Shown in pieces: positions 14,258 through 37,784 of a stretch of 64,000 bases of DNA. The stretch lies in assembly GCF_000010285.1 (NCBI RefSeq), contig NC_010617.1:2604001-2668000 (forward strand). The letters run 5' to 3'. The position numbers and the translations under genes are program-made. Position 1 is the first letter of the stretch; every line of letters begins with the position of its first letter. This stretch comes from Kocuria rhizophila DC2201 (GTDB taxonomy: Bacteria; Actinomycetota; Actinomycetes; Actinomycetales; Micrococcaceae). Under the pieces are notes generated by a model that was not told the DNA's origin, did not search any database, and saw only the letters and a program-made list of their open reading frames with translations.

Positions 14258-14325
14258 CGGGGTCTCCGTGCTGTTGGGGAAAGGGAAGAGCGGAAGGATG
14301 CGGACACCCTGTGAGCCGGGCCATA

Positions 14326-14358
14326 GTTATACGCGACTCGCCCCCGTTGTTCAACAAC
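14326..14358 (-). promoter_or_regulatory. Promoter of the SdaC-type gene with overlapping palindromic operator
   Basis: Read on the minus strand: TTGAAC (14354-14349), 17 bp spacer, TATAAC (14331-14326), close to the sigma70-type consensus. The -35 box is embedded in a perfect 6-1-6 palindrome, GTTGTT-G-AACAAC (14346-14358). A repressor bound there would block the promoter. The neighbouring MarR gene is a candidate, but this is inference. Confidence 0.65.
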
Positions 14359-14479
14359 CCCGGCCGTGACGGGCGCGCCCCCTGACCCCCGCCCCGCGTG
14401 GTGGGCACGCCTTCAGTCCGCGCGCCCCGAGCGTCACCGCACGTCATCCCGGAAATGCGCCTCCCGTACCATGGTGGGC

Positions 14480-14902
14480 ATGGATCCCGAGTTCCGCCTG
14501 GACACGCAGCTGTGCTTCGCGCTGTACACCGCCTCGCGCAAGGTGACCAGCGCGTACCGTGAACCTCTCAAGGCCATCGGGCTGACCTACCCGCAGTACC
14601 TGGTGATGCTTGTGCTATGGGAGCAGGACCACCGCTCGGTCCGCCAGCTGGGCGAGACCCTCGCCCTGGACAGCGGCACCCTCTCCCCACTGCTGCGCCG
14701 CGTGGAGGCGGCGGGCTTCGTGACCCGCCGCCGCAGCGAGCAGGACGAACGCTCCGTGGTCATCTCCCTCACGGACGCCGGGCGTGCCCTGCAGGAACCG
14801 GCCGCGGGGATGCAGCGCGAGCTGCTGGACGAGCTGGACATGTCCCCCAGGGACAGGAAGACCCTGCACAGGCTGGCCCAGAAGCTGTGCCACGTGCTGT
14901 GA
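14480..14902 (+). CDS. MarR-family regulator, OhrR-like
   Basis: A 140-residue winged-helix protein. Its N-terminus, DTQLCFALYTASRKV, contains the Cys that in OhrR senses organic peroxides. The wing region is SGTLSPLLRRVEAAGFVTRRRSEQDERSV. Two in-frame ATGs (14471 and 14480) are possible; 14480 fits the family length. OhrR usually adjoins the peroxidase gene ohr, but none is in this window. Its neighbours are the SdaC-type transporter (divergent) and oleate hydratase (convergent). The peroxide-sensing role is inferred from the Cys. Confidence 0.8.
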   Translation: MDPEFRLDTQLCFALYTASRKVTSAYREPLKAIGLTYPQYLVMLVLWEQDHRSVRQLGETLALDSGTLSPLLRRVEAAGFVTRRRSEQDERSVVISLTDAGRALQEPAAGMQRELLDELDMSPRDRKTLHRLAQKLCHVL

Positions 14903-14950
14903 CGGCTTCCGGGTGCACCCGTGCAGGGTCCGCTCAGCAGGCGCTGAGGA

Positions 14951-16708
14951 TCACAGCACGCCGTACTCCTCGAGCAGCTCGCCCACCTCGCCGTCCTCCA
15001 GCCGACGACGCAGCCGCTTGCGCAGCGGTTCCGGCCCGGGGATCCGGACCTTCTCGCCGTCCCGCAGCCGGGTGAGGCCCTCCAGCAGCACCCGCACGTC
15101 ATAGGTGCTGCCCCACGTCTCGGGAACGCCGCGCTCCACCCCCATGAGCTGGTACACGGCCTCCATGCCGGTGCGCACCGAGTACTCGGTGGTGAAGATG
15201 CAGTCGCGGCCGGTCTCGGCGAACTGGCCGATGAACGCGAAGTTGCGGGCGCCCTCGGGCACCACCTGGGGGCGGTCGCCCGCGTGGCGGGGCATGAAGA
15301 AGCTGGTCACGTACGGCATCATCACGGGCACCGTCTTGGCGCCGGTGGCAGCGAGCTCCGGGATCTCCTCCACGGGAACGCCCATGTGGTAGAGCCACTC
15401 CTGGGTGATCTCCTCGCCCGTGCACTCGGCCATGGTCTTCTTCACGAAGTCGCCGGGGGTGTCCACGAACAGCGAGTAGACCCACACCACGATCTGGTCC
15501 TTCGGCTGCTTCTTGAAGTGCGGCTGGCGGTTCACGGTCCAGCTGAGCAGCCACGAGGAGTCCTCCGCCGTGACGATCCCGCCCGTGACCACGCGGCCGC
15601 TGAACGGGTCCCGCTGCGCGATCTTGCGGATGTACTCGGGAATCCGCTCGTCCAGGGTGGTGACGGTGGCGGACTCCCACTTGGTCTCGTCGATCGAGGA
15701 GCAGAACACCTCGGGGCGCCCGAAGGAGGGGTCCTTGGCGGCGATCCGCTTCCACAGGTCCCAGGCCGAGGCGGGGCCGCGGTCGAGCTCCGCGGGGGTG
15801 GCGTGGTCGCCGTCGTTCGAGTTGTCCACGAGGGAGCCGATGGTGGTGAACACGAGGTCGTGCTCACCGAGCTCCTGGGTCTCGGTGGCGCCCTCGCGCA
15901 CCCAGTGGATCGCGGTGGCGCGGATCTCGCCGTTGCGGTGGGAGAAGTCGATGTCGCGGACGTCGGTGTCGTACTGGAAGGTGACGCCGCGCTCGGTGAG
16001 GTAGGAAATCAGGGGCAGCACGAAGGACTCGTACTGGTTGTACTTGGAGAACTTCAGCGCAGAGAAGTCCGGCAGCCCGCCGATGTGGTGCACGAAGCGG
16101 TGAAGGTAGAGCTTGAACTCCAGCGCGGAGTGCCACTCCTCGAACGCGAACATGGTGCGCCAGTACATCCAGAACGGGGAGGCCAGGAACTCCTTGCTCA
16201 TCACGTCCTGGATCTTCTTGCCCTCCATCTCCTCGCGCGTGGCCAGGAAGATGTGCAGGAGGTCCTTCTGGGCGCGCTGCGGGAGGTCGAACTTGCCTTC
16301 GTGGCCCGCGTCCTGGCCCTGCTTCACGGTGGCGCGGCGCAGGGAGTAGTTGGGGTCGTCCCGGTTGAGCCACGCGAACTCGTCCAGCACGGACGCGCCC
16401 TCGATCTCCAGGGACGGCACGGAGCGCATCATGTCCCACAGGCACTCCATGTGGTTCTCGAGCTCACGCCCGCCGCGGATCACGAACCCCTTCTCGGGCA
16501 CGTCCAGCCCATCCAGGGCACCGCCGGGCAGCCGGCCCTTCTCCACCACAGTCACGTTCTCGCCGGGCACGCCGGCGTCCCGGACCAGGAACACCGCCGC
16601 CGCGAGTCCGGCGAGACCGGATCCCACGATCCACGCGCGGGTGTCCTGCGCGTGCTCCGCCGGGCGGGGCCGCATGAAGGCCTCGTAGTTGCCTGCTGTG
16701 AACTGCAT
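14951..16708 (-). CDS. ohyA: Oleate hydratase
   Basis: A 585-residue FAD-dependent hydratase (MCRA family) that adds water to oleate or other cis-9 fatty acids to give 10-hydroxy acids, thought to detoxify host or environmental fatty acids. The FAD Rossmann motif is AWIVGSGLAGLAAAVFLVRD (about residues 25-44), and the family motif VIRGGRELENHMECLWDMM follows. Further blocks are ALEFKLYLHRFVHHIGGL and GGIVTAEDSSWLLSWTVNRQ. A strong ribosome site (AAGGAGGAA) precedes ATG 16706-16708. It is divergent from a TetR gene, with a perfect palindrome between them. Confidence 0.94.
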   Translation of the reverse strand: MQFTAGNYEAFMRPRPAEHAQDTRAWIVGSGLAGLAAAVFLVRDAGVPGENVTVVEKGRLPGGALDGLDVPEKGFVIRGGRELENHMECLWDMMRSVPSLEIEGASVLDEFAWLNRDDPNYSLRRATVKQGQDAGHEGKFDLPQRAQKDLLHIFLATREEMEGKKIQDVMSKEFLASPFWMYWRTMFAFEEWHSALEFKLYLHRFVHHIGGLPDFSALKFSKYNQYESFVLPLISYLTERGVTFQYDTDVRDIDFSHRNGEIRATAIHWVREGATETQELGEHDLVFTTIGSLVDNSNDGDHATPAELDRGPASAWDLWKRIAAKDPSFGRPEVFCSSIDETKWESATVTTLDERIPEYIRKIAQRDPFSGRVVTGGIVTAEDSSWLLSWTVNRQPHFKKQPKDQIVVWVYSLFVDTPGDFVKKTMAECTGEEITQEWLYHMGVPVEEIPELAATGAKTVPVMMPYVTSFFMPRHAGDRPQVVPEGARNFAFIGQFAETGRDCIFTTEYSVRTGMEAVYQLMGVERGVPETWGSTYDVRVLLEGLTRLRDGEKVRIPGPEPLRKRLRRRLEDGEVGELLEEYGVL

Positions 16709-16757
16709 GTCGTTCCTCCTTCCGCGGGGGCGTCACCTTGGCGCTCCCTGCGTTCAT

Positions 16758-16780
16758 AATTGAGCCTACTCAATTTTGAG
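16758..16780. promoter_or_regulatory. TetR operator between oleate hydratase and its regulator
   Basis: AATTGAG-CCTA-CTCAATT (16758-16775) is a perfect 7-4-7 palindrome. It overlaps a second one, CTCAA-TT-TTGAG (16769-16780). Both lie in a rare AT-rich stretch between divergent genes. A TACAAT -10-like box at 16786-16791 for the TetR gene lies just beyond. This is a typical site for a fatty-acid-responsive TetR repressor. Confidence 0.75.
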
Positions 16781-16797
16781 TGCAATACAATTATCTG

Positions 16798-17544
16798 GTG
16801 GAGAAAATTCAGAACCTGACGCCCCGCGGCAGAACACGCCCCCTGGAGCACGTGGCCTCCCGCGTGAGCCCGCGCGGCCCCGGGCGCCGCGAGATCGCCA
16901 AGGCGAAGAAGCGCGCCCGCATCCTGGCCGCCGCCCGCTCGCTCATGAGCGAGAAGGGCTACGCGCAGATGTCCATGAGCGAGGTCGCCTCCCGCGCGGA
17001 CGTGGCCGCGGGCACCGTGTTCCAGTACGCCGCCACCAAGGCGGAGCTGCTGATGATGGTCACCGAGAACATCTGGGCGGACCACGTCAACGACATCCTG
17101 GACGCCACCCCCGACCCCGGCCACCGCTCCCCCGCTGCGGTGGTGGACGCCATCATGGACTCACTCGCCCCGGTCTTCGACATGGCCGTGCACTGGCCGG
17201 AGACCACCGTGTGGATCGCACGCGAGATTCTCTTCGGCGAGGACCTCCCTCACCGCCGCGAGGTGCTGGTGCTGGTGGAGAAGCTCGAGAACCACATCGC
17301 GCGGATGCTCGCGGGCTGCCGTTCCGCCGCGCACGCCGGCACTACACCTCTGGACGTGGGCGCACGGATGATCGTGACCAGCGGGCTCGCGGAGCTCAAC
17401 CGCGCCCGCCAGGGCCGCGCCGAGCTGCGCCTGGTGCTCGAGCGAATGCGGGAGATCGTCGCCCTCGTGGCCGCGGGCGTGGACAGTGCACTTCCTCCCG
17501 CGCACGACGCCGCTGTCCCCGCGTCCCCGGCGACCGCCCGGTAG
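16798..17544 (+). CDS. TetR-family regulator, probably of oleate hydratase
   Basis: TetR DNA-binding domain at the N-terminus: KKRARILAAARSLMSEKGY, then DVAAGTVFQYAATKAELL. The rest is a helical ligand domain of about 170 residues. The start is uncertain. GTG 16798 falls about 7 bp after a TACAAT box, so the mRNA may be leaderless (248 residues); GTG 16852 (after GGAG) and GTG 16864 are also possible. Divergence from oleate hydratase across a perfect palindrome makes autoregulation and fatty-acid-responsive control of ohyA likely (inference). The C-terminal tail contains a one-mismatch copy of the dispersed repeat (17503-17513). Confidence 0.85.
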   Translation: MEKIQNLTPRGRTRPLEHVASRVSPRGPGRREIAKAKKRARILAAARSLMSEKGYAQMSMSEVASRADVAAGTVFQYAATKAELLMMVTENIWADHVNDILDATPDPGHRSPAAVVDAIMDSLAPVFDMAVHWPETTVWIAREILFGEDLPHRREVLVLVEKLENHIARMLAGCRSAAHAGTTPLDVGARMIVTSGLAELNRARQGRAELRLVLERMREIVALVAAGVDSALPPAHDAAVPASPATAR

Positions 17545-17779: not shown

Positions 17780-19234
17780 TCAGCTGCGGGGCAGGGTGAT
17801 CAGCGCGGTGTGGTCGTCCAGCGGCGGGCGGTGGCGGCCGCTGCCCCGGACGAACAGCGCGTAGCCCACGCCCAGGAGCACGAGCCACACGACGCCCACG
17901 ATCAGCGCCACGCGGGTGTCCGGGAACCAGCCGAGCAGCACGATCACGAACAGGATGCCGACGGTCGCGGCCCACGAGGCCACGGGCCAGAACGGGACCT
18001 TGAACTCGGACTCGGGGCGGTTCTTGCGCTCGATCTCCCGCCTCATGGCGATGTGCGAGAGCAGGATCATGAGCCACACCCACACGGTGGCGAACGTGGC
18101 AATCGAGGCGATGATGAGGAACACGTCCTCGGGGATCACAGCGTTGAGGACCGCGCCGATGCCCAGGGCGATGCCCATGACCACCACGGTGAGCCACGGG
18201 ACGCCGTTGCGGGAGACCTTGGTGAAGGCCCGGGGCGCCTGGCCCTGCTCCGCGAGGCCGAAGAGCATGCGGCCCGCGCCGAAGGTGTCGGCGTTGATCG
18301 CGGAGATGGCGGCGACGATGACCACCACGTTGAGGATGGATGCCGCAGCGGGAATACCCAGGGCGGAGAAGATCTGCACGAACGGGCTGGCCTCGCCGGT
18401 GATCTCGGTCCACGGCACCAGGGACATCAGCACCACCATGGTGCCCACGTAGAACAGCAGGATGCGGGCGGGCACGGCGTTGACGGCCTTGGGGATGGAG
18501 CGGGCCGGATCACCGGCTTCACCGGCGGTGATGCCGATGGTCTCGATGCCGCCGAACGCGAAGACCACCACGGACAGTGCGGCCAGCAGGCCACCCACGC
18601 CGTTGGGCAGGAAGCCGCCGTGGTCCACCAGGTTCTGCACGCCCACGGGCTCGCCGGGGGCGTAGGAGACGCCGATCACCATGAGCACGATGCCGCCCAC
18701 GATCATCGCCAGGATGGCACCCACCTTGATGATGGTCAGCCAGAACTCGAGCTCACCGAAGATCTTCACGTTGCGCGTGTTGATGGCGGCGATGAACAGG
18801 ATCACCGCGGCCACCCAGATCCAGCGGGGCGTGTCCGGGAACCAGAAGCCCATGTACACGCCGAACGCGGTGACGTCCGCAATGGCCACCACGATCATCT
18901 CGAACACGAACGTCCAGCCCGTAACGAAGCCCGCGAACGGGCCCAGGTAGCGCGCGGCGTACTGGCCGAACGAACCGGGGACGGGGTGGCGCACGGCCAT
19001 CTCGCCGAGGGCGCGCATGACCATGTAGACCACCGCTCCGGCGATCAGGTACGCGAGGATCACGGACGGCCCGGCCGCCTGGATGGCGGTGGCCGAGCCG
19101 TAGAACAGCCCGGTGCCGATCGCCGAGCCCAGCGCGATGAACTGGATGTGGCGCATGCTCAGACCGCGGGACAGGGTGTGGTTCTCCTGCGGGGACCCCT
19201 GTGGAGCGGGTTGCTGCGGGGTGGAACTGCTCAT
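17780..19234 (-). CDS. APC-family amino acid permease, probable histidine uptake
   Basis: A 484-residue, 12-segment permease. The first helices ([20 protein letters not shown]) and [17 protein letters not shown] are hallmarks of the AAT subgroup of amino-acid/H+ symporters. Start ATG 19232-19234 overlaps the hutG stop codon (ATGA), so the two are translationally coupled. Operon membership with hutG points to histidine as substrate, as for HutT-like permeases. Proline or aromatic amino acids remain possible on sequence alone. Confidence 0.88.
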
Positions 19235-20391
19235 CGGTGATCTCCCGTGGTGTTCCCGGCGAGGCCGGTGGGTGGGGTCGGTGCGGGGCGGGCGGTTGAT
19301 GCGGTGGTCGCCGCCCCGGGGGACGACGTCGCGGCGGCGCCCCCGGCGCGCGGGGAGGACGACGTCGCGGCGGCGCCTCCCGCGTGCGGGGACGTGCCCG
19401 CGGAGGCCGGGCGCGGTGTCGTCGTGCTCAGGGCGTCGTGGGCCAGGGTGGTGATGAGGCGCGCGGCGGCGCGGGCGGTGCGACCGTCCACGTCCATCCG
19501 CGGCAGCAGCTCCACCACGTCCACGAGCACCAGTTTGCCGCTGCGGGCCACGCGGTGGCACACGGCCTGGATGGTCTCCAGGGGAACACCGTATCCGGCC
19601 GGGGCGCTCACGCCGGGCGCCACGGCGGCGGGCAGGACGTCCAGGTCGATGCTCAGGTGGATGGCGTCCACACGCTTGACGAGACGGTCCACGACCTCCA
19701 GGACGGCGTCGAGGTGGCTCGGCTGGCACTGCTCGTCCGTGAGGTAATCCACGCCCAGCTCGTCCGCGGTGCGGAACAGGACGCCGGTGTTGTTGGGCTC
19801 GCTGATGCCCAGCACGGTGTAGTCGAACGTGCGGCCCGCCTCCTGGTCCGCGCGGGCCATCTGCAGGAACGGGGTGCCGGAGGAGGGCTCGTCCGCCTGG
19901 CGCAGGTCGAAGTGGGCGTCCAGGTTCAGCACGCCCACGCGCTTGTCCCGCAGGCGCTCACTGCGGGTGCGGCCCAGGTAGCTGCCCCACGCGGTGTCGT
20001 GGCCGCCACCCAGGACGATCACGGGGTTGCCGGTGTCCAGGAGGCGTGCGACGTGCTGCCCCAGGGTGTCTTGGCCGTCCTCCAGGTCGCGGTCCGGGAC
20101 CACCACGGTGCCGGCGTCGTGGATGCCGAAGTTGGCATGCATCGCCAGAGGGGCGAGTGCACCGCGCAGGGCGTCCGGACCCTCGGAGGCGCCCACGCGG
20201 CCCTTGTTGCGGCGCACGCCCTCGTCGCAGGAGAAGCCGATGAGCTCGACGGCGGCGGCCTCGGTGGCGCTGCCCTGGTCGCCTGATTCTGGGCGCACCT
20301 TCTGGTGCCAGCGCAGGTGCTCGGGGGTGCCCCCGTCCGTTCGTCCGCTCCAGACGGAGTCGTCCGGTGGAATGATCCGGGTGGGATTCAT
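19231..20391 (-). CDS. hutG: Formimidoylglutamase
   Basis: A 386-residue ureohydrolase-fold Mn enzyme that hydrolyses N-formimidoyl-glutamate to glutamate plus formamide, the last step of histidine breakdown. Metal-binding motifs are in order: [23 protein letters not shown] and [14 protein letters not shown] 20389-20391 is chosen because the conserved region starts soon after. The last 50 or so residues form a low-complexity Ala/Ser/Thr/Pro tail with an internal duplication of AGGAAATSS, encoded by a 36-bp-period DNA repeat; this tail is not part of the family. It is the first gene of the minus-strand operon with the permease and is divergent from the IclR regulator. Confidence 0.93.
19321..19377. 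repeat. Direct repeat encoding the hutG C-terminal tail
   Basis: GGACGACGTCGCGGCGGCGC occurs at 19321 and again at 19357, a 36 bp period, inside the 3' end of hutG. It keeps the reading frame. Its sequence resembles the dispersed GACGACGCCGC element and may derive from it. Confidence 0.6.
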
Positions 20392-28154: not shown

Positions 28155-28215
28155 GTGAGGAGAGGTTCTGCCCCCGGAAAGTGCATTTCCGGGGGCAGAA
28201 CCTCTCCCTGCGCGT
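28155..28215. terminator. 21 bp perfect hairpin after hutH; member of a hairpin repeat family
   Basis: The stem runs 28160-28180 and 28186-28206, around a GTGCA loop, with every base paired. It lies 83 bp after hutH. The arms GAGGAGAG.TTCTGCC and GGCAGAAC plus the outer CGCGTC recur at 36812-36866, so it is also a dispersed repeat. Confidence 0.75.
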
Positions 28216-28650: not shown

Positions 28651-29907
28651 ATGCCAGAAGTGATTTTCCCGCTGGACTCCACCAAGCCCTTCACCGAGCA
28701 GAAGCTGACCGGTCACAACCGCTGGCACCCGGAGATCCCGCCCGTCGCCACGCTCAAGCGCGGCGAGAGCTACCGCATCGACTGCCGCGAGTGGTTCGAC
28801 GGCGCCATCAAGAACGACGACTCCGCGGACGACATCCGGGACGCCCCGCTGAACCGGGTGCACGCACTGTCCGGGCCGTTCCGGATCGAGGGCGCGGAGC
28901 CCGGCGACCTGCTGATCGTGGACATCCTGGACGTGGGTCCCATCCCGCAGGAGGAGGGCCCGCTGGCCGGTCAGGGCTGGGGCTACACGGGGATCTTCGC
29001 GCAGAAGAACGGCGGCAGCTTCCTGGTGGACCAGTTCCCGGACGCCTACAAGGCCGTGTGGGACTTCCGCGGCGGCGAGTGCACGTCCCGGCACATCCCC
29101 GGCGTGAAGTTCACGGGCATGGTCCACCCCGGTCTCATGGGCACCGCGCCGTCCTCCGAGCTGCTGAAAACGTGGAACAAGCGCGAGGGCGATCTGATCG
29201 CCACCGATCCGCAGCGCGTGCCCCCGCTGGCTCTGCCACCCGAACCCGACGCCGCGATCCTGGGTTCGCTGACCGGCGCAGACTTCGACCGCGTGGCCGG
29301 CGAGGGCGCCCGCACGGCTCCCCCGCGCGAGAACGGCGGCAACCAGGACATCAAGAACTTCACCAAGGGCTCGCGCGTGTTCTACCCGGTGTACGTGTCC
29401 GGGGCGAACCTCTCCATGGGGGACCTGCACTTCTCCCAGGGGGACGGTGAGATCACGTTCTGCGGCGGCATCGAGATGGGCGGTTTCATCGACATCCACG
29501 TGGACGTGATCAAGGGCGGCATGGACACCTACGGCGTAAGCGAGAACGCCATCTTCATGCCCGGGCGCAACGGTCCCGTGTACTCGGAGTGGCTGGCGTT
29601 CTCGGGCACGTCCGTGACGCTCGACGGCGAGCAGCGTTACCTGGACTCGCACCTGTCCTACCAGCGCGCGATCCTGCACGCGATCGACTACCTCGCCAAG
29701 TTCGGCTGGTCCAAGGAGCAGGCGTACCTGCTGCTGGGCGCCGCGCCCATCGAGGGCCGCTTCTCCGGGGTGGTGGACATCCCCAACTCGTGCGCCACGG
29801 TGTACCTGCCCACGGAGATCTTCGACGTGGACATCCGTCCCTCCGCCAGCGGCCCCATGCAGGTGGACCCGGGCATGGGCGCCCCGCGTGCGATGAACCC
29901 AGGCTGA
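28651..29907 (+). CDS. fmdA: Formamidase
   Basis: A 418-residue FmdA/AmdA-family amidohydrolase that splits formamide to formate and ammonia. Signatures are MPEVIFPLDSTKPFTEQ at the N-terminus, NRVHALSGPFRIEGAEPGD, HPGLMGTAPSSELL, FSQGDGEITFCGGIEMGG (containing the conserved catalytic-region Cys), and VVDIPNSCATVYLPTEIFD. Start ATG 28651 has AAAGGT upstream. It directly follows the hut genes, so it can recycle the formamide made by HutG; this link is inference but chemically direct. Confidence 0.94.
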   Translation: MPEVIFPLDSTKPFTEQKLTGHNRWHPEIPPVATLKRGESYRIDCREWFDGAIKNDDSADDIRDAPLNRVHALSGPFRIEGAEPGDLLIVDILDVGPIPQEEGPLAGQGWGYTGIFAQKNGGSFLVDQFPDAYKAVWDFRGGECTSRHIPGVKFTGMVHPGLMGTAPSSELLKTWNKREGDLIATDPQRVPPLALPPEPDAAILGSLTGADFDRVAGEGARTAPPRENGGNQDIKNFTKGSRVFYPVYVSGANLSMGDLHFSQGDGEITFCGGIEMGGFIDIHVDVIKGGMDTYGVSENAIFMPGRNGPVYSEWLAFSGTSVTLDGEQRYLDSHLSYQRAILHAIDYLAKFGWSKEQAYLLLGAAPIEGRFSGVVDIPNSCATVYLPTEIFDVDIRPSASGPMQVDPGMGAPRAMNPG

Positions 29908-29927
29908 TTCCGCCACGGCCCCGCGCG

Positions 29928-29938
29928 GACGACGCCGC
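29928..29938. repeat. Dispersed GACGACGCCGC repeat, core copy
   Basis: Exact core followed by T and GGG, 21 bp after the formamidase stop, in the gap between convergent genes. Confidence 0.6.
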
Positions 29939-29957
29939 TGGGTTGCCTCTCGCAGGT

Positions 29958-30009
29958 GAGTGCAGTTCCGCCTCGGGAACCTAAGTTTCCCGCCGGTGGA
30001 AGTGCACTC
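29958..30009. terminator. Long imperfect hairpin between convergent genes
   Basis: GAGTGCAGTTCCGCC...CGGGAA pairs with TTTCCCG...GGTGGAAGTGCACTC with a few mismatches. It ends 23 bp before the stop of the minus-strand hydrolase and 51 bp after the formamidase, so it probably serves both. Confidence 0.55.
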
Positions 30010-30031
30010 GTATGTCTAATGGGAGACCCCC

Positions 30032-30910
30032 TCAGTTTTGTGCAGCGGCCGCCAGGTGCTCCTGGATCTCCGCCAGCACCTCGTCCGGGCGCTCTTCCAC
30101 CATGAAGTGCCCGGTGGGAACCGCCCGACCGGTGATCCGCGGCAGCCACGGCCGCCACGCCTCCAGCGGATCCGTCTGGGCACCCACCACGCCGTCGTCG
30201 CCCCAGAGCAGCAGGGCGGGGAGGTTGCGGGAGGTGCCGCGGTCGGCGTCATCGTGCTCCCGGTCCACCCCGGCGGCCGCGGCGTAGTCCGCGCACCACG
30301 CGGCCACCACCGACGGGTTCTGGGCGGCGGCCTCGTAGGCAGCGAGCGCCTCGGGGTCGAACGTGTCCAGGGAACCGGGAGTGCCACTGAGTCCCCCGAG
30401 GGCCGCGTGCAGGAACGTGAGGGGCCCGGCGCTGATGAGCCCCTGCGGCATGGGTGCTGGCTGGGCCAGGAACAGCCAGTGGTAGTACCGGATGGCCAGC
30501 CAGTCGTCCATGAGCTCCCACACGGTGGGGGTGGGGAGGATGTCCAGCAGCGCCACGGAGCGCACGGCGTCCGGGGCGTCCAGAGTCATGCGGTGGGCGG
30601 TGCGGGCGCCGCGGTCGTGGGCCACCACGTGGAAGGACTCGTGGCCCAGGTGGCGCATCACGGCCACCATGTCCGCGGCCATGGCCCGGAAGCTGAAGTC
30701 CTCACTGTCTGCGGTGGATTCTCCGTAGCCGCGCAGGTCCGCGACGACCATGCGGTGGTCCCGCGCGAGGGCCGGACCCAGGCGGTGCCACATGGCGTGG
30801 GTCTGCGGGAAGCCGTGCAGCAGCAGGAGCGGCTCGCCCCGCCCGCCGGTCCGCACGTGGATGGTCGCCCCGGGGACCGGGATGCGGTGGGTCTCGAAGT
30901 TCTCGAACAT
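30032..30910 (-). CDS. Alpha/beta hydrolase, haloacetate dehalogenase-like
   Basis: A 292-residue alpha/beta hydrolase. The nucleophile elbow AHDRGARTAHR has the Asp, Arg and Arg of fluoroacetate dehalogenases (DRGAR). The cap contains YYHWLFLAQPAPMPQGLI, which includes the halide-stabilising His-Trp pair. The C-terminal His lies in TGHFMVEERPDEV. These match haloacetate dehalogenases, which replace the halogen of fluoro- or chloroacetate with hydroxyl; an epoxide hydrolase role is the alternative. ATG 30908-30910 is chosen since MFENFETHRIPVPGATIH is the family N-terminus. It stands alone. Confidence 0.85.
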   Translation of the reverse strand: MFENFETHRIPVPGATIHVRTGGRGEPLLLLHGFPQTHAMWHRLGPALARDHRMVVADLRGYGESTADSEDFSFRAMAADMVAVMRHLGHESFHVVAHDRGARTAHRMTLDAPDAVRSVALLDILPTPTVWELMDDWLAIRYYHWLFLAQPAPMPQGLISAGPLTFLHAALGGLSGTPGSLDTFDPEALAAYEAAAQNPSVVAAWCADYAAAAGVDREHDDADRGTSRNLPALLLWGDDGVVGAQTDPLEAWRPWLPRITGRAVPTGHFMVEERPDEVLAEIQEHLAAAAQN

Positions 30911-31003
30911 GGGGCCATTGTGCGCGCCCCGGGGACCGCCGGGCGCTTCAGGCCCCTGGGAGGCGCCCCAAGCGCCTGCTCCCGCGACTCGTAAACTTGC
31001 CCC

Positions 31004-33442
31004 ATGCGCGGACAGGTGACTGAAGTTCTCAAGGTGTACGGGATGCAGGAGCGGCAGCTGGTGATCCCCGTGTACCAGCGCAACTACGACTGGGGGCTGA
31101 AACAGTGCCAGCAGCTGCTGGAAGACCTCGTCAACGTCATCCAGCAAGGCCGGCCCAAGCATTTCTTCGGGGCCGTGGTGGGCCAGCCGGAGGGTTCATG
31201 GCGGTGGGTGGTGATCGACGGTCAGCAACGACTCACCACGGTCAGTCTGCTCATGCTGGCCCTTGCGGACCTCCTGGACGAGGGCACCCTCGAGTCGCGC
31301 GATCCAGGACTCGCCCACAGGATTCGCACCAGCTTCCTGCTGCTCAACGAGCAGCAGGACACACCCCGGTTCAAGCTCAAGCCCGTCAAGCATGATGCGG
31401 ACGCCTACGCCTTGCTGTTCAGGTCTGACTCGGATCACATCGACACGTCCTCGGTGACCGCCAACTACCGTTTCTTCAAGGATCAGATCCCCCGACTGCC
31501 CATCGATGGGGACGACCTGTGGGCCGCGGTAGAGCGCCTCGAGGTCATGCATCTGGACCTGGAGCAGCACGACGATGCACAGCGCATCTTCGAATCGCTC
31601 AACTCCACGGGGCTGGCTCTGAGCGAAGCGGACAAGGTGCGGAACCTGGTTCTGATGGGCCTGGACGTCCACGAGCAGGAACGCGTCTACACCGACTACT
31701 GGAACCGTATTGAGGTCAACGTCGGCTATGACACCGGGGCATTCCTGCGCTGGTACCTGGTGACTCGCACCTCGCGCATCCCCCGCCAGGACCAGGTTTA
31801 CGAGTCCTTCAAGAAGTACATCACCGAGACGGGGCTTCGAGGCGCTGAGCTGCTGGACGGGGTCCGGAAGTACTCCACCTACTACCGCCAGATCCGCACC
31901 GCCACCACCGGAAGCTCAAAGATCGACCTGCGTCTTCGCCGGCTCAACCTCTTGAAGACCGATGTCGTGCTCCCCCTGCTCATGCCCCTCTTCGAGTCGC
32001 GGGAGACCGGCGAGATCACGGACCTCGATCTTGCCGAGTGCATCCGCACCGTGGAGTCGTATATTTTCCGTCGCTACATTGCAGAAGTTCCGACGAATGC
32101 GCTGAACAAGGTGTTTGCCACGGTCTACAGGGACGTGAAGCGCATCCGCCCCGAAAACCGTTCCTTCGCCGAAGTCCTGGGGTACTCGCTGCGGAAGCGC
32201 TCCGGCTCCGGAGCCTTCCCCGATGACGCTGAGTTCATCAGCAGTCTTGAGGTGAAGAACCTGTACAACTTCAAGGGCGAGCGTCGGAAGTACCTGTTCG
32301 AGTGCTTGGAGAACCTGGATTCCAACGACACCAGAGACATCGCCAACGGCATTGAGGACGGGTCTCTCACCATTGAGCACGTCATGCCGCAGACGCTCAC
32401 GCAGGCATGGCACGACGAACTGGGTGATGAGGCCCAGCGCATCCACGAGCAGTGGTTGAACCGGCTCGGCAACCTGACCGTGACCGGGTACAACTCCTCC
32501 TACTCGAACTCTTCGTACTCCACGAAACGCACCATGAAGCACGGATTCATGGAGTCCCCGTTCCGGTTGAACCTGGAGATGCGCAGCGCCGAACACTGGG
32601 GCGAGGACCAGCTGGCGGCACGGACCCGCCGTCTCTGCGCAGATGCGCTCACCTACTGGATCTATCCCGAGAGCGACTTCGAACCGGCCCGACCGCAGCT
32701 GCCCACGGAAGCACTGGGAACGGACACCAACTTCACGGGCAGGGCTGCTGTGTCCTTCACGTGGAACGAGCACCACGCCACGGTGGCCAACTGGCGGGAC
32801 CTGACGACCCGGGTATTCACGATCCTTCTGGTTGAGCACCGGGACGAGTTCCTCCAGTGGGCCCGGACCTCCGACTGGTTCCGCGTAGGCGCGGCCTACG
32901 ACCCGGACGAGAACGGCGTGTACCGCCTGGACGACAGCATCGGCTGGAACGCATCGTCGAGCACCTGGACAAAGGTCTCCCTGATGCGCAGGGTTTTTTC
33001 CCACCTGGAGCTGGACCCCGAAGAGCTGATCATCACCCTGCGTTCGGACGAGACCGCGGAGCGGGGACAGGAAACCGCAGAAACTGCCGAGGGCGAGAAC
33101 TTCCCCTACCTGGAAATCGTGAAGTTCCTGCCCCGCCTCGTTGAGCTCGAGGGCATGGCCACGGACGACCCCCTGGTGCAGGAAACGGTGGAGGAGTTCA
33201 TGCAGTCCTTCCACCCGTTTCGGGACGAGCAGCCACTCAAGACCCTGGGGACCAGCGTGCGGAAGTTCTGCGCCGATCCGGAACGACGCGCCGCCGCGAC
33301 TGCGGAGGAAACCATTGCCCTCATCTCCTCCAAGGTGGACGAGACGGAGCACGTGGATCCGGATGCCCTGGCCGAGGCAGCCGTGGGGGGCACCCTGTCC
33401 CTGTGGGTGGGGCGCCTGCGGGAAACGAGTCCCAGCACCTGA
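31004..33442 (+). CDS. GmrSD-type (DUF262/DUF1524) fused restriction nuclease, candidate phage defence
   Basis: An 812-residue protein. The N-terminal DUF262 (ParB-like nucleotidase) domain has IPVYQRNYDW (about 21-30) and VIDGQQRLTT (about 69-78), the conserved DGQQR motif. The DUF1524 HNH-like nuclease part has TIEHVMPQTL (about 456) and NRLGNLTVTGYNSSYSNSSY. A C-terminal region of about 250 residues (ATVANWRDLTTRVFTILLVE onward) resembles the extra domain of many DUF262 proteins. GmrSD and SspE relatives cut modified phage DNA or nick DNA. There is no ribosome site; a TAAACT box at 30992-30997 suggests a leaderless mRNA. It is followed after 66 bp by a helicase gene. Target modification is unknown. 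Confidence 0.87.
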   Translation: MRGQVTEVLKVYGMQERQLVIPVYQRNYDWGLKQCQQLLEDLVNVIQQGRPKHFFGAVVGQPEGSWRWVVIDGQQRLTTVSLLMLALADLLDEGTLESRDPGLAHRIRTSFLLLNEQQDTPRFKLKPVKHDADAYALLFRSDSDHIDTSSVTANYRFFKDQIPRLPIDGDDLWAAVERLEVMHLDLEQHDDAQRIFESLNSTGLALSEADKVRNLVLMGLDVHEQERVYTDYWNRIEVNVGYDTGAFLRWYLVTRTSRIPRQDQVYESFKKYITETGLRGAELLDGVRKYSTYYRQIRTATTGSSKIDLRLRRLNLLKTDVVLPLLMPLFESRETGEITDLDLAECIRTVESYIFRRYIAEVPTNALNKVFATVYRDVKRIRPENRSFAEVLGYSLRKRSGSGAFPDDAEFISSLEVKNLYNFKGERRKYLFECLENLDSNDTRDIANGIEDGSLTIEHVMPQTLTQAWHDELGDEAQRIHEQWLNRLGNLTVTGYNSSYSNSSYSTKRTMKHGFMESPFRLNLEMRSAEHWGEDQLAARTRRLCADALTYWIYPESDFEPARPQLPTEALGTDTNFTGRAAVSFTWNEHHATVANWRDLTTRVFTILLVEHRDEFLQWARTSDWFRVGAAYDPDENGVYRLDDSIGWNASSSTWTKVSLMRRVFSHLELDPEELIITLRSDETAERGQETAETAEGENFPYLEIVKFLPRLVELEGMATDDPLVQETVEEFMQSFHPFRDEQPLKTLGTSVRKFCADPERRAAATAEETIALISSKVDETEHVDPDALAEAAVGGTLSLWVGRLRETSPST

Positions 33443-33508
33443 GATCTCGGACCGTCTCCTTCCGAGGCGCGCCCCAGAAGTGGCCACCGGCTGAGGCAGG
33501 ATGGGGAA

Positions 33509-36500
33509 ATGGCGATGTCTCAGATGAGTCCCGCGCAGCAGCGCATTCTGGACTACTGGTGGATGCTGGAGCTGTTCAGTCCGCAGCCGCTCCCCAAACT
33601 GACGCCCCGGTCAACACGGCCCGAGGACCGGCAGGTCGTGGCCTGGACATCCGATGCGCCCCTCCCGTGGGATTCACTGCCCGAGCCTCGACCTATGGGA
33701 AATACCCCGCGGGAGTGGCGGCATACGGTCTATCTCGGTGTTTACAAGGTGGAGGACACCTACGAGGTCATGCACTGGGTGTTCGCGGACGATCCGGACG
33801 CCTACGACGAGCGCCCCGGCGGTCGGAGCGCCTGCGCGGGGGTTCTGGTGGGCCACGACGGAAAGCTGATCGGGGACACCGCCACGCTCTCGTCCTGTCT
33901 CTGGGCGGTGGGCCGCCTCCTCCACCCGGGCCCGCGGGATCCGTCGTGGATGTCCGGTTTTGAGGCGGCGCAGGAATCCTTCGTGGAAGCCCTCGACGAG
34001 CTGGGGGGCCGTCGTCTGGAGCAGGAGAACTCGCACGAGGTTCCCCGGCTGGGCGAGGCGTATCTGAACGACATTCTGCGGGCCGCACACGCCGGCGCCG
34101 GCGTCCAGGGCCGCGAGGATCTCGCCACCCACCAGATCGTCATCGAAAGTCGAGTGGTCGCCGTACGCCCGCACGACAGCGTCAGCGTCAGCGACATGGA
34201 CTTCCTCAACAGCTTCTACCTGCAGGATCTGGGCACCGTACGGCAGGCAGCGGCAGCGGGACGCAGCGGAACCGCCCTACTTGAGTACCTGACCGAGGAC
34301 GGGAAGGAGACGTCCGCTGGACGAGTGGACGTCATCCAGCACCCCGAGGCAGTCGATGCCCGGACCCGTGTGGACCAGCTGCCCTTGGGCCGCTGGCCTT
34401 CGAACCCCGAGCACCCGCTTGCCCTGAGCCAGCAGTTCGCGGTGAACCGCGCCCTCAACGACCTGCGCCAGAACCTCGGCGTCATGGGCGTCAACGGCCC
34501 GCCGGGCACCGGCAAGACCACGATGCTACGGGATGTGCTGGCGGGCAACGTGGTGGAACGAGCCCGCCGACTCGCAGCTCTCAACGATCCGTCCCGTGCC
34601 TTCACCGGATCAATGCACCGCTGGACGTCGGCGTCCGGGTACAGCAGATCGGTGCCGCAGCTCATTCCCGAGCTCACGGGGTTCGAGATGGTCGTGGCAT
34701 CGGCGAACAACGCCGCTGTGGAGAACGTGGCGGTCGAAATCCCTTCTGCGGATGCGATTTCTTCGCCGTGGGAGAAGTCTGCCGACTACTTCAAGGACAT
34801 TGCGACGGCGACTCTGCGGGCGGCCGCCGGAAAATCAGCAGCCGACGAGGCGGACACTCCAGGCTGGGGACTGGTGGCAGCCAGACTGGGCAAGAAGTCC
34901 AACCGCATGGCTTTCCAGAGCGCTCTCTGGTTCGACGAAAAAGCGTCGCGGGACCGATCCACCGGGTCCGACGGCGCTCCGTCCCACAGCGGCGGGAGGA
35001 CCTCGCCCCGGGTGGAGAGGGAGGGTCTCGACACCATTCTCAAGCACTGGGCCGAGGGCACCCGGCCGAAGCGCACCTGGGGAGAAGCCCAAGCAGTGTT
35101 CCAGCGTGCGCTGGAGCGCGTGGAGAACCTGATGGGGCAGCGCCAGGCCGCTGAAGGACGACGGGAAGAAGTCCAGTTACTGGTGCGTAAGATCGCCCGC
35201 CGGGAAGAACACCTGCGCACTCTCCGGGCGGAAGAAGGCCGGGCGCGCGAGATCCATCGCGCGCAGGTCCTGAGAGCCGGTGACCTGCAGAACGAGCTGG
35301 ACACCGCGGCCGCCGCCTACCAGCAGCACATGGGCGAGAAGCCAGGCATCCTGGAAACCATCTTCACCCTGGGCGCCGCGCCACGTGAGTGGCGAACGCA
35401 CCTGAGCCCGCTGAGCACGGCACTGGAGACCGCCCGGCAACGGTCCGCGTCCCACGTGGCCGAAATCGACCGCGTCCAGCGCCATCTGGCCAGTGTCCGG
35501 CAGGAGGCGGAGACAGCTGAACGGGATCTGGCAATGAAGACGTCGCGCAGGCGTTCCCTCGAGGCCCAGTGCGCCCAGGACCGCACGAGATACGGCAAGC
35601 ACCACCCGGATGCCCACGCGTCCGTCGAGGACCGGGAGTTGCACGCCCCGTGGCTCGACCACGATCTCAGCAAGGCGCATTCCGATCTCTTCCTCGCTGC
35701 CCTGCAGCTGCACCAGGACTTCATGGCCGCCACTGCCACCACCATGAGACAGGGACTGAGAGCAGCTTGCGAAGTGGTGGCGGGAGACCACCCGCGGAAA
35801 CTGGAGCGGGAGAAACTGCGCACCGCATGGCAGCTGTTCTTCCTGGTGGTGCCGCTGGTGTCATCAACCTTTGCGTCGCTGGGGCGAATGTTCGGTGACG
35901 TAGGCCCCGAAGCATTCGGGTGGCTCCTCATCGACGAGGCAGGACAGGCATGTCCCCAGTTCGCGGTGGGAGCCATCTGGCGCGCACAGCGCGTTCTCGC
36001 GGTCGGCGATCCCCTGCAGCTGCAGCCGGTGGTCACGATTCCCCCGAAATCGCGGCGAGACATCGCTGCGGCGTACGGCGTCTCTGCGACGTGGATACCG
36101 CCCCGCGCCTCCGTTCAGACCCTTGCCGACCGAATCTCTCCCTACGGCACCGTTCTTCCGCAGGGCGAGCAGGACGTGTGGGTCAGCGCCCCGCTCAAGG
36201 TGCACCGGCGCTGCGACGACCCCATGTTCTCCCTGTGCAACCGCATTGCCTACAACGGGATCATGGTGAACGGGGTTCCAAAGCCCCGCGCCAAGGACGC
36301 AGCCGTCGACCCCTTCGAGGACACGGGGACGGGGCCGGCAGTCGCGTGGAGCTACTGGGCGGATGAGCCCGCGACCACCCCCGGAACACACCTGCAGATG
36401 GGGCAGGTCAAGCGGCTGGAGAAGGCGCTTGAGTATCTGGACGAGAAGGGCGTGGACCCGTCACGAGTGATTGCCATATCCCCGTTCCGTGATGTGTCGA

Positions 36501-36769
36501 ACCATCTGCGGCAGCTCGTGGACCGCAAGAAGTATCCCGGTCTGCAGGCGGGCACGATCCACACGGCTCAGGGCCGAGAGGCGGATGTCGTCATCCTGGT
36601 TCTGGGAGGAGATCCCGCAAGCCCGGGGGCCAAGGCCTGGGCGGCGTCAACCGTGAATCTGGTGAACGTCGCGGCCAGCCGCGCCAGGCGCCGGCTGTAC
36701 GTCATTGGTGACCGTTCGGAGTGGTCCGGTCACCGATACTTCTCGGACCTGTCCGATGCCCTGAAGTGA
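33509..36769 (+). CDS. Upf1-like SF1 helicase with coiled-coil insertion, candidate defence partner
   Basis: A 1086-residue protein. Residues 1-300 have no domain I recognise (MSPAQQRILDYWWMLELFSP onward). Walker A is VNGPPGTGKTTMLRDV at about residues 329-344, followed by EMVVASANNAAVENVAVEI (motif Ia). A coiled-coil, charged insertion of about 470 residues then precedes motif II, LLIDEAGQACPQFAVG (about 805). Motif III is AVGDPLQLQPV; motifs V and VI are TIHTAQGREADVVILVLG and NVAASRARRRLYVIGD. DEAGQA is typical of Upf1/SMUBP2-type SF1B helicases acting on RNA or DNA. Same orientation and a 66 bp gap to the GmrSD gene suggest one functional unit. Confidence 0.88.
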   Translation: MAMSQMSPAQQRILDYWWMLELFSPQPLPKLTPRSTRPEDRQVVAWTSDAPLPWDSLPEPRPMGNTPREWRHTVYLGVYKVEDTYEVMHWVFADDPDAYDERPGGRSACAGVLVGHDGKLIGDTATLSSCLWAVGRLLHPGPRDPSWMSGFEAAQESFVEALDELGGRRLEQENSHEVPRLGEAYLNDILRAAHAGAGVQGREDLATHQIVIESRVVAVRPHDSVSVSDMDFLNSFYLQDLGTVRQAAAAGRSGTALLEYLTEDGKETSAGRVDVIQHPEAVDARTRVDQLPLGRWPSNPEHPLALSQQFAVNRALNDLRQNLGVMGVNGPPGTGKTTMLRDVLAGNVVERARRLAALNDPSRAFTGSMHRWTSASGYSRSVPQLIPELTGFEMVVASANNAAVENVAVEIPSADAISSPWEKSADYFKDIATATLRAAAGKSAADEADTPGWGLVAARLGKKSNRMAFQSALWFDEKASRDRSTGSDGAPSHSGGRTSPRVEREGLDTILKHWAEGTRPKRTWGEAQAVFQRALERVENLMGQRQAAEGRREEVQLLVRKIARREEHLRTLRAEEGRAREIHRAQVLRAGDLQNELDTAAAAYQQHMGEKPGILETIFTLGAAPREWRTHLSPLSTALETARQRSASHVAEIDRVQRHLASVRQEAETAERDLAMKTSRRRSLEAQCAQDRTRYGKHHPDAHASVEDRELHAPWLDHDLSKAHSDLFLAALQLHQDFMAATATTMRQGLRAACEVVAGDHPRKLEREKLRTAWQLFFLVVPLVSSTFASLGRMFGDVGPEAFGWLLIDEAGQACPQFAVGAIWRAQRVLAVGDPLQLQPVVTIPPKSRRDIAAAYGVSATWIPPRASVQTLADRISPYGTVLPQGEQDVWVSAPLKVHRRCDDPMFSLCNRIAYNGIMVNGVPKPRAKDAAVDPFEDTGTGPAVAWSYWADEPATTPGTHLQMGQVKRLEKALEYLDEKGVDPSRVIAISPFRDVSNHLRQLVDRKKYPGLQAGTIHTAQGREADVVILVLGGDPASPGAKAWAASTVNLVNVAASRARRRLYVIGDRSEWSGHRYFSDLSDALK

Positions 36770-36811
36770 GCATCTGAACGGTCCCGGAGGAGGGCCAAGG
36801 CCACCGCGTCC

Positions 36812-36866
36812 GAGGAGAGCTTCTGCCACCGAAAGGCGCGCTGTCGGTGGCAGAACTTCCCCTGAC
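36812..36866. repeat. Second copy of the hairpin repeat family
   Basis: TTCTGCCACCGA (36821-36832) pairs with TCGGTGGCAGAA (36844-36855) around an 11-base loop. Arms and outer flanks (GAGGAGAG, CGCGTC) match the hairpin at 28155-28215. It lies between the convergent helicase and DUF3349 genes and probably works as a terminator. Confidence 0.7.
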
Positions 36867-36951: not shown

Positions 36952-37515
36952 CTACTCCCCCTCGAACGGCCAGCCGTGGGCCTCGAGCATCGCGCGGATG
37001 CGTGCGAGCTCCTCGGGCTTGGGCTCGTCCTCCGTGGCGCGCTGGATGGCGGCGCGGGCGTCCGCCTCGGAGGGCGCCACCCCCTGCTCGCGGGCGTCGT
37101 GGGCGAGCTGGTCTGCGATCGCGGCCATGTCCTCGTCGTTGAGCTGCGGGCGCAGCACCGCGAGCACGGGCAGGTAGTCCTGGGCGGGCACCCCGTTGGG
37201 GTAGTCGGCGCGCAACCAGTTCATCACCCGGGCCACGTAGCCCGGCTGCCGGGGTGGTTCGTCCTGGCTCGCACCCGCGAGAGGCCACCCGGCGCGCGCG
37301 AGCTCCGCGGCGACGTCGCCCAGCTGTTCCGCGGAGGCCGCGGCGGGCCCCAGGAGGTCTCCCGCCGGGATGTCCAGGGTCTCGAGCAGCCGCTCGGTGC
37401 GGTGAGGGCCCACCGTGCGGGCCAGCAGCTCCGCGAGCGCCACGTGCTGCTCCGGGGGAACACCGTGGGGGTAGGCGGCGCGAATGTGGTCGAGTGCCGC
37501 ATCGAAGGTCATCAT
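36952..37515 (-). CDS. DUF3349 protein with duplicated domain
   Basis: A 187-residue cytoplasmic protein. DUF3349-like blocks occur twice: FDAALDHIRAAYPHGVPPEQ at the N-terminus and VARVMNWLRADYPNGVPAQD in the middle. Each is followed by a short helical bundle. The start ATG 37513-37515 overlaps the stop of the upstream membrane-protein gene (ATGA). DUF3349 proteins are small actinobacterial proteins of unknown function (Rv0543c type). The operon with a phosphate transporter is the only clue to its role. Confidence 0.82.
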   Translation of the reverse strand: MMTFDAALDHIRAAYPHGVPPEQHVALAELLARTVGPHRTERLLETLDIPAGDLLGPAAASAEQLGDVAAELARAGWPLAGASQDEPPRQPGYVARVMNWLRADYPNGVPAQDYLPVLAVLRPQLNDEDMAAIADQLAHDAREQGVAPSEADARAAIQRATEDEPKPEELARIRAMLEAHGWPFEGE

Positions 37516-37784
37516 CCGAACACCGAGATCCCTAGGTAGTGGTCCAAGCTCTTGCGGGTGATCCACAGGACCCCGATCACCACGGCAGCGAGCACGATCG
37601 CAAAGCAGAGTACCGCCCCGGCGAGCGCCAAGGGTTTGCGGCGGGCAACGCCGTCCGGGCCGGGCTCGGGGGTGGCCCGGCTCCACAGGGTGATGCCCAC
37701 CGTGAACAGCGCGGGCAGTCCCGCCCCGAAGCACAGCCCGGCGAGCAGCACGGCGAGGACAGATCGGGCCATCTCGACAATCAT
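37512..37784 (-). CDS. Small two-segment membrane protein in the phosphate-transport operon
   Basis: A 90-residue protein with two hydrophobic helices: SVLAVLLAGLCFGAGLPALF (about 8-27) and AGAVLCFAIVLAAVVIGVLW (about 54-73). A polar loop lies between them. Both ends overlap neighbours by ATGA (with the transporter upstream and DUF3349 downstream), so the three genes are co-translated. Its function is unknown; it may be an accessory subunit of the transporter. Confidence 0.78.
   Translation of the reverse strand: MIVEMARSVLAVLLAGLCFGAGLPALFTVGITLWSRATPEPGPDGVARRKPLALAGAVLCFAIVLAAVVIGVLWITRKSLDHYLGISVFG

Follow-up and report, generated by a model that had tools for sequence, protein, structure and literature searches.

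Type IV restriction enzymes of the GmrSD, BrxU and SspE kind are described, in passages of a review (PMC10952713) and of a study of TgvAB mutants (PMC11411939), as proteins in which a DUF262 domain senses DNA modification and couples nucleoside triphosphate (NTP) turnover to a DUF1524 nuclease; the GmrSD-like HEC-06 proteins are reported, in the passages of the latter, to act independently. Helicases and type I restriction-modification genes are enriched near GmrSD according to an extract of PMC4619093, and RNA is the predicted target of the CoCoNuT type IV systems, in some of which UPF1-like helicases occur (PMC11090510, in the part available). Here we analyse a locus of Kocuria rhizophila DC2201 in which a gene for a fused GmrSD protein (gene 1) is followed by a gene for a UPF1-like helicase (gene 2). 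The locus lies in a stretch of 64,000 nucleotides (the window), which covers bases 2604001-2668000 of a single-contig genome of 2,697,540 bases in total. A sequence-only reading had proposed that the two genes form a two-gene defence module. In the genome sets that we sampled the pairing is not conserved, and with a probability of roughly 0.7 we read the locus as a ~5.9 kb strain-specific insertion with two neighbouring immune-type genes that act independently.

To look for co-occurrence of the two families, we searched 394 genomes drawn from the larger group (class) at thresholds of E <=1e-30 for the helicase and E <=1e-15 for GmrSD, scoring at most two candidates per genome, a procedure that may have missed second copies. 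Helicase relatives were present in 12 genomes, GmrSD relatives in 58 and both in two, against a hypergeometric expectation of 1.8 (P of two or more, 0.55); co-occurrence is therefore at chance level. The two genomes with both families are that of the window and G097, where the families lie ~11.6 kb apart. Of 27 Kocuria genomes, nine had a match to the gene 1 query and five to the gene 2 query, two of the latter at full length (the window genome, G000, and G019); G019, which encodes the nearest Kocuria relative of gene 2 at 55% identity, has no gene 1 match.

The neighbourhoods of both families agree with these counts. For the helicase, we took the best 80 of 435 confirmed relatives in GTDB contigs, with flanks of up to 8 kb that are shorter at contig ends. 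A GmrSD-family gene was present in the flanks of three of these 80 loci (~6.5 kb upstream of the helicase in L112, at 1.3e-45; ~2.6 kb upstream in L133, at 1.8e-10; ~1 kb downstream in L167, at 9.4e-7) and within 3 kb in two, and in none of the 80 did it lie immediately upstream as it does in the window. No neighbour family within 3 kb was common to more than three of the 80 loci when open reading frames (ORFs) of at least 100 residues were clustered by BLAST. Nor was a GmrSD-type gene found by annotation and profile in nine annotated plasmid stretches around helicase matches, or by profile where the helicase occurs in viral contigs and phages. Conversely, the gene 2 family adjoined GmrSD in none of 62 GmrSD loci, which comprise all 59 places in the class outside the window genome and three of the eight other matching Kocuria genomes. 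The proposed module thus fails the co-localisation test that the sequence-only reading had itself set, while its remark that the pairing is not a named system holds: PADLOC gave no exact match to a named two-gene system, and a literature search that covered both the pair and a helicase acting as a system by itself found no description in the portions of the papers that it returned.

GmrSD genes do have helicase neighbours, of variable kinds. Helicase classes in the 62 loci were assigned by regular expressions and one profile, and the six SF1/SF2 and four UvrD calls were checked with Pfam. In six of the 62, the GmrSD gene has an SF1-UPF1 or SF2 helicase gene no more than ~0.85 kb away, in four cases upstream and in the same orientation, and Pfam and PADLOC together assign all six to restriction or defence helicases. 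These are a Mokosh-like SF1 helicase-PLD protein with DUF5710 (L074 of G097, 14287-17358), 772 bp upstream of its GmrSD (18130-19989) and distinct from the gene 2 family helicase that lies ~11.6 kb upstream in the same locus; mREase_IV-type PLD + ResIII + DUF3427 proteins 145 and 832 bp upstream on the same strand (L076 3840-9596 and L230 2143-8706; G248 and G323); DISARM/BREX-type helicases in L229 and L270 (G224 and G012); and a type I restriction endonuclease in L249 (G204). A third, partial homologue of the mREase_IV-type protein was seen in L240. UvrD-type helicases lie near GmrSD in L216, L222, L247 and L256, and no helicase was called in the other 52 loci. On a Rhodococcus plasmid, the neighbours of GmrSD are a ResIII helicase and an N6_N4 methylase. 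GmrSD thus occurs among defence genes but has no constant partner, in agreement with what the extract of PMC4619093 reports.

The gain of a small strain-specific block by insertion is supported by empty sites in related genomes and by base composition. BLAST against G016 and G012 places the left break at 30933/30934: window positions 29500-30933 are separated from 36950 onward by 133 bp in G016 (L202), and from 36945 onward by 211 bp in G012 (L203). The right break lies at or before 36797, as homology in BLAST restarts at 36798 in G025 (L204) and at 36802 in G024. The distance between the flanking genes, for an alpha/beta hydrolase and a DUF3349 protein, is 6044 bp in the window, 161 bp in G016 and 245 bp in G012; it is 5845 bp in G025, where the site holds unrelated metabolic genes (glucosamine-isomerase, amidohydrolase, PTS EIIC and aldo-keto-reductase genes; L204 6536-11970), so that the contents of the site vary between Kocuria species. 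The G+C content of the insert is 65.0%, against 70.0% for the window, and one of 117 insert-sized overlapping windows, a set that includes windows overlapping the insert, has a lower value. The comparison genomes are species representatives, and the two genes may have arrived together or separately.

The sequence-only reading had argued for acquisition as a unit from bounding hairpins and from a lack of dispersed repeats. Small-block gain stands on the evidence above, but these two supports do not carry it. The right-hand hairpin folds better than shuffled sequences (z -2.63) but lies outside the insert, in a flank common to G025 and G024, and the left-end hairpin is not above shuffles (z +0.63; 142 of 200 shuffles fold equally well). 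Repeated 13-mers, of which six occur at least four times in the window, all GC-rich words, are indeed absent from the insert; they are also absent from 22 of the 32 two-kb blocks of the window, the insert blocks among them, so the repeat argument has little weight. Further to the left, at window positions 28159-28207, we observed a near-perfect hairpin with arms that contain GTTCTGCC and GGCAGAAC; it has one weaker copy elsewhere in the genome, and a similar sequence occurs in the empty site of L203.

Gene 1 was correctly recognised in the sequence-only reading as a fused GmrSD with DGQQR and HNH-type motifs. Pfam GmrSD_N (whole-protein E 2.4e-31) and GmrSD_C (4.2e-26) both score above cut-off in one chain, and the expected motifs are intact: QR at residues 25-26, DGQQR at 72-76, FxxxN at 196-200, EHVMP at 458-462 and GNLT from 489 (His-Me finger residues 458-462 and 489-493). 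In PADLOC, gene 1 matches Orf5 at 5.3e-134 and HEC-06 at 8.8e-58, and its best solved chain by sequence is the DUF262 protein 9jfl (E 4e-12, N-terminal part only), with SspE a weak match (E 0.003). By these matches gene 1 is a predicted further member of type IV restriction, Orf5/HEC-06-like. It shares with GmrSD, BrxU and HEC-06 the fused DUF262-DUF1524 order and the QR, DGQQR, FxxxN and His-Me motifs, and differs from them in its length of 812 residues, which includes a 255-residue C-terminal extension that is partly common to its closest relatives (alignment reaches residue 755 in G248 and 805 in H31). The independent action of HEC-06 proteins fits the HEC-06 profile match, though Orf5 profiles score higher. 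No search was aimed at sspABCD, the partners of SspE; among six flank proteins scanned in the window, five match other families and one matches none. The methylation that DNA normally receives in E. coli is probably not strongly targeted by gene 1, since K. rhizophila DC2201 can be transformed at 2.7e6 cfu per microgram with pKITE301, a shuttle plasmid constructed in E. coli JM109 (PMC5711781, in the part available).

Gene 2 combines a UPF1-type core fold with superfamily 1 (SF1) motifs. AAA_11 and AAA_12 score above the Pfam cut-off, motifs III, V and VI were found along with Walker A and motif II, and the AlphaFold model has a predicted local distance difference test score (pLDDT) of 89.7. 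Its best solved sequences are UPF1, IGHMBP2, SEN1 and DNA2, at ~17-21% identity, and gene 2 differs from these in its long coiled-coil hairpin and in an N-terminal domain of its own. Each architectural claim of the sequence-only reading was borne out: an SF1B Upf1-like helicase 66 bp downstream of gene 1; a 470-residue insertion between Walker A and motif II with a coiled coil, where we counted 470 residues and where long helices are modelled at 524-608 and 623-698; and N-terminal 300 residues without an assignment, the model of residues 1-303 having no PDB or BFVD match at E 0.001 or better.

The closest defence relative of gene 2 is MkoC of Mokosh type II, whose PADLOC profile matches it at E 1.9e-56 over residues 298-1069. 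The same profile matches all 45 members of an alignment made up of the window protein and 44 of the 80 helicase loci (38 fitting an N-terminal motif, with near-duplicates dropped, and six added by hand), the range of the match being known for the window protein and one other. Gene 2 shares the SF1 helicase core with MkoC but has no PLD nuclease in its chain, and its residues 1-297 lie outside the match. Pfam finds no PLD domain in gene 2, and none is among the 20 families listed for the 45 members at E 0.001. We extended the comparison to 99 loci, namely the best 80 and 19 from plasmids and other genomes (with the duplicates L022/L100 and L078/L117 and the near-identical L023/L153): no helicase ORF in these has an HKD motif; motif VI was located in 84 of the ORFs, and in all but one of them (83, the exception being L120) no more than 75 residues follow it; and a separate PLD-like ORF is present in two loci (L074 and L105). 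Intact SF1 motifs, together with N-terminal residues that are invariant in 41 sequences, speak for a stable family and against a truncated one, and gene 2 is, as judged from sequence, a nuclease-free variant of the MkoC-like, UPF1-type helicases. By description it also resembles CoCoNuT CnuH, likewise an SF1 helicase of UPF1-like type that occurs in the context of type IV restriction (passages of PMC11090510); no McrB-type GTPase or coiled-coil nuclease was found among the scanned neighbours of gene 2, which are GmrSD, formamidase, alpha/beta hydrolase, DUF3349, phosphate transporter and MFS proteins and one small ORF without a family.

The family appears by sequence search to be sparse, spread over several phyla and carried on both chromosomes (for example L132, L140, L142 and L143) and plasmids. 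At E <=1e-5, 716 plasmid records match gene 2, 609 of them predicted to be conjugative; 548 are from Klebsiella, and query coverage reaches at least 80% in only 26. In two IncFIB-type plasmids, of E. coli and Klebsiella, a single small gene separates traH and traG from the relative of gene 2 that follows them (L208 5239-8580 and L210 5224-8580), and many of the 548 Klebsiella matches perhaps stem from such copies. Two further plasmids have the helicase within a few kb of mobH. The copy in G019 (the same Kocuria sp. contig as L100) adjoins an Abi_2 gene, and its upstream genes encode a serine recombinase and a phage-type integrase. The features of the locus are collected in Table 1.

Table 1. 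Coordinates (window positions) of the insertion, its two genes and their surroundings in K. rhizophila DC2201.
Feature	Position	Strand	Basis
Inserted block	about 30934-36797 (~5.9 kb)	.	Missing in G016 and G012; sole contents are gene 1 and gene 2
Gene 1, fused GmrSD-type (DUF262/DUF1524) putative type IV restriction enzyme, 812 residues	31004-33442	+	Pfam, PADLOC, motifs
GmrSD_N/DUF262 domain, residues 12-216, with QR, DGQQR, FxxxN	31037-31651	+	Pfam, motifs
GmrSD_C/DUF1524 domain, residues 405-545, EHVMP, candidate catalytic His459	32216-32638	+	Pfam, motifs
C-terminal extension, residues 557-812	32672-33439	+	No Pfam domain above cut-off
Spacer between gene 1 and gene 2, 66 bp	33443-33508	+	33430-33520 folds no better than shuffles
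Gene 2, UPF1-like SF1B helicase, 1086 residues, MkoC-like core without PLD	33509-36769	+	Pfam, PADLOC, solved-sequence matches, model
N-terminal region, residues 1-300	33509-34408	+	Residues 1-303 modelled alone, pLDDT 87.6
Walker A GPPGTGKTT, residues 330-338	34496-34522	+	Motif
Predicted coiled-coil hairpin, helices 524-608 and 623-698	35078-35602	+	Model; weak matches to coiled-coil proteins
Motif II DEAGQ, residues 809-813	35933-35947	+	Motif
Motifs V and VI, residues 1015-1063	36551-36697	+	Motif
Left flank, alpha/beta hydrolase	30032-30910	-	Identity 94-97% in G016, G012, G025
Right flank, DUF3349 protein	36952-37518	-	Pfam
Hairpin in right flank, outside insert	36821-36855	.	Arms 36821-36832 and 36844-36855

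The preference for two independent genes follows from the empty site in G016 and G012, the other cargo in G025, the low G+C content and the chance-level co-occurrence, as well as from the lack of a recurrent helicase neighbour, the variable neighbours of GmrSD and the independence of HEC-06 proteins reported in passages of PMC11411939; the pairing is probably an accident of the cargo site. One may instead suppose a single, lineage-specific system in which the GmrSD nuclease receives invading nucleic acid that the helicase has unwound or sensed, and adjacency on one strand, 66 bp apart, as the only contents of one insertion would suit this, as would the restriction or defence-type helicases near GmrSD in six of the 62 loci, four of which precede it in the same orientation. 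Those helicases, however, are of a different family each time or nearly so and mostly belong to a recognised system, the gene 2 family adjoins none of the 62, GmrSD immediately precedes none of the best 80 helicase loci, and the nearest Kocuria relative of gene 2 occurs in a genome with no gene 1 match, all of which makes such cooperation unlikely.

Gene 2 could also be an accessory of conjugative elements, serving transfer or replication rather than immunity and leaving gene 1 to defend alone. The 609 predicted conjugative plasmids and the copies after traH/traG or near mobH speak for this, yet the plasmid count is dominated by Klebsiella records and by matches that cover less than 80% of the query, chromosomal copies exist too (L132, L140, L142 and L143), and the G019 copy sits beside an Abi_2 gene and recombinases; we consider the idea improbable. 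A descent from Mokosh type II with loss of the PLD nuclease, leaving a helicase that decays or borrows a nuclease, would explain why the MkoC profile matches every aligned member. It is hard to reconcile with intact SF1 motifs, invariant N-terminal residues, ORFs that end just past motif VI in 83 of 84 cases, and the 99 loci, in which no HKD motif and just two separate PLD-like ORFs occur, and we think it unlikely.

On the reading of independent action, gene 1 would be, by analogy with known GmrSD enzymes, a modification-dependent type IV restriction enzyme: its DUF262 domain would meet modified DNA, bind and hydrolyse NTP, and then license the DUF1524 His-Me nuclease to cut, and the C-terminal extension may add target recognition or regulation. 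Gene 2, to go by its fold and family, would be a UPF1-like motor that uses ATP to translocate along single-stranded DNA or RNA, and its coiled-coil arm and N-terminal domain would recognise or pry apart nucleoprotein intermediates of phages or plasmids and so block them without a dedicated nuclease partner. We propose, tentatively and at less than even odds, that gene 2 represents a single-gene immune family. Its members would be UPF1-like helicases that lack a nuclease, carry a coiled-coil arm and, at the N-terminus, a sensor domain of a new kind, and need nothing beyond their motor activity to stop phages or rival plasmids. Several points weigh against two independent immune genes. The putative defence role of gene 2 rests on kinship and context; the 66-bp, one-strand spacing suggests co-transcription with gene 1; G097 has both families, 11.6 kb apart; and the three of 80 helicase loci near GmrSD exceed random placement, roughly estimated at under one, which would imply some association, as in defence islands generally. 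In addition, the best HEC-06 score of gene 1 is well below those of the PADLOC Orf5 models, and some plasmid helicases lie close behind same-strand genes (for hypothetical proteins, or for a DEAD-box helicase and a zinc-finger protein), so a helicase partner in some lineages is possible.

The non-conserved pairing removes one candidate from the list of defence systems and leaves gene 2, which merits attention apart from gene 1, as the more interesting part of the locus: a helicase family that lacks a PLD nuclease and whose N-terminal domain has no solved-structure match. In Pseudomonas, loss of the horizontally acquired helicase PA1372 (passages of PMC4410645) or of the likewise horizontally acquired DUF262/DUF1524 protein PFLU4242 (passages of PMC8544851) relieves plasmid cost. 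By description these are of the same broad kinds as gene 2 and gene 1; they come from different strains and, in those passages, are not described as a pair. Should gene 2 prove to be an immune gene, its family would offer a test of whether cells can be defended by a motor protein that has no nuclease, and may help to explain the plasmid cost of horizontally acquired helicases in Pseudomonas.

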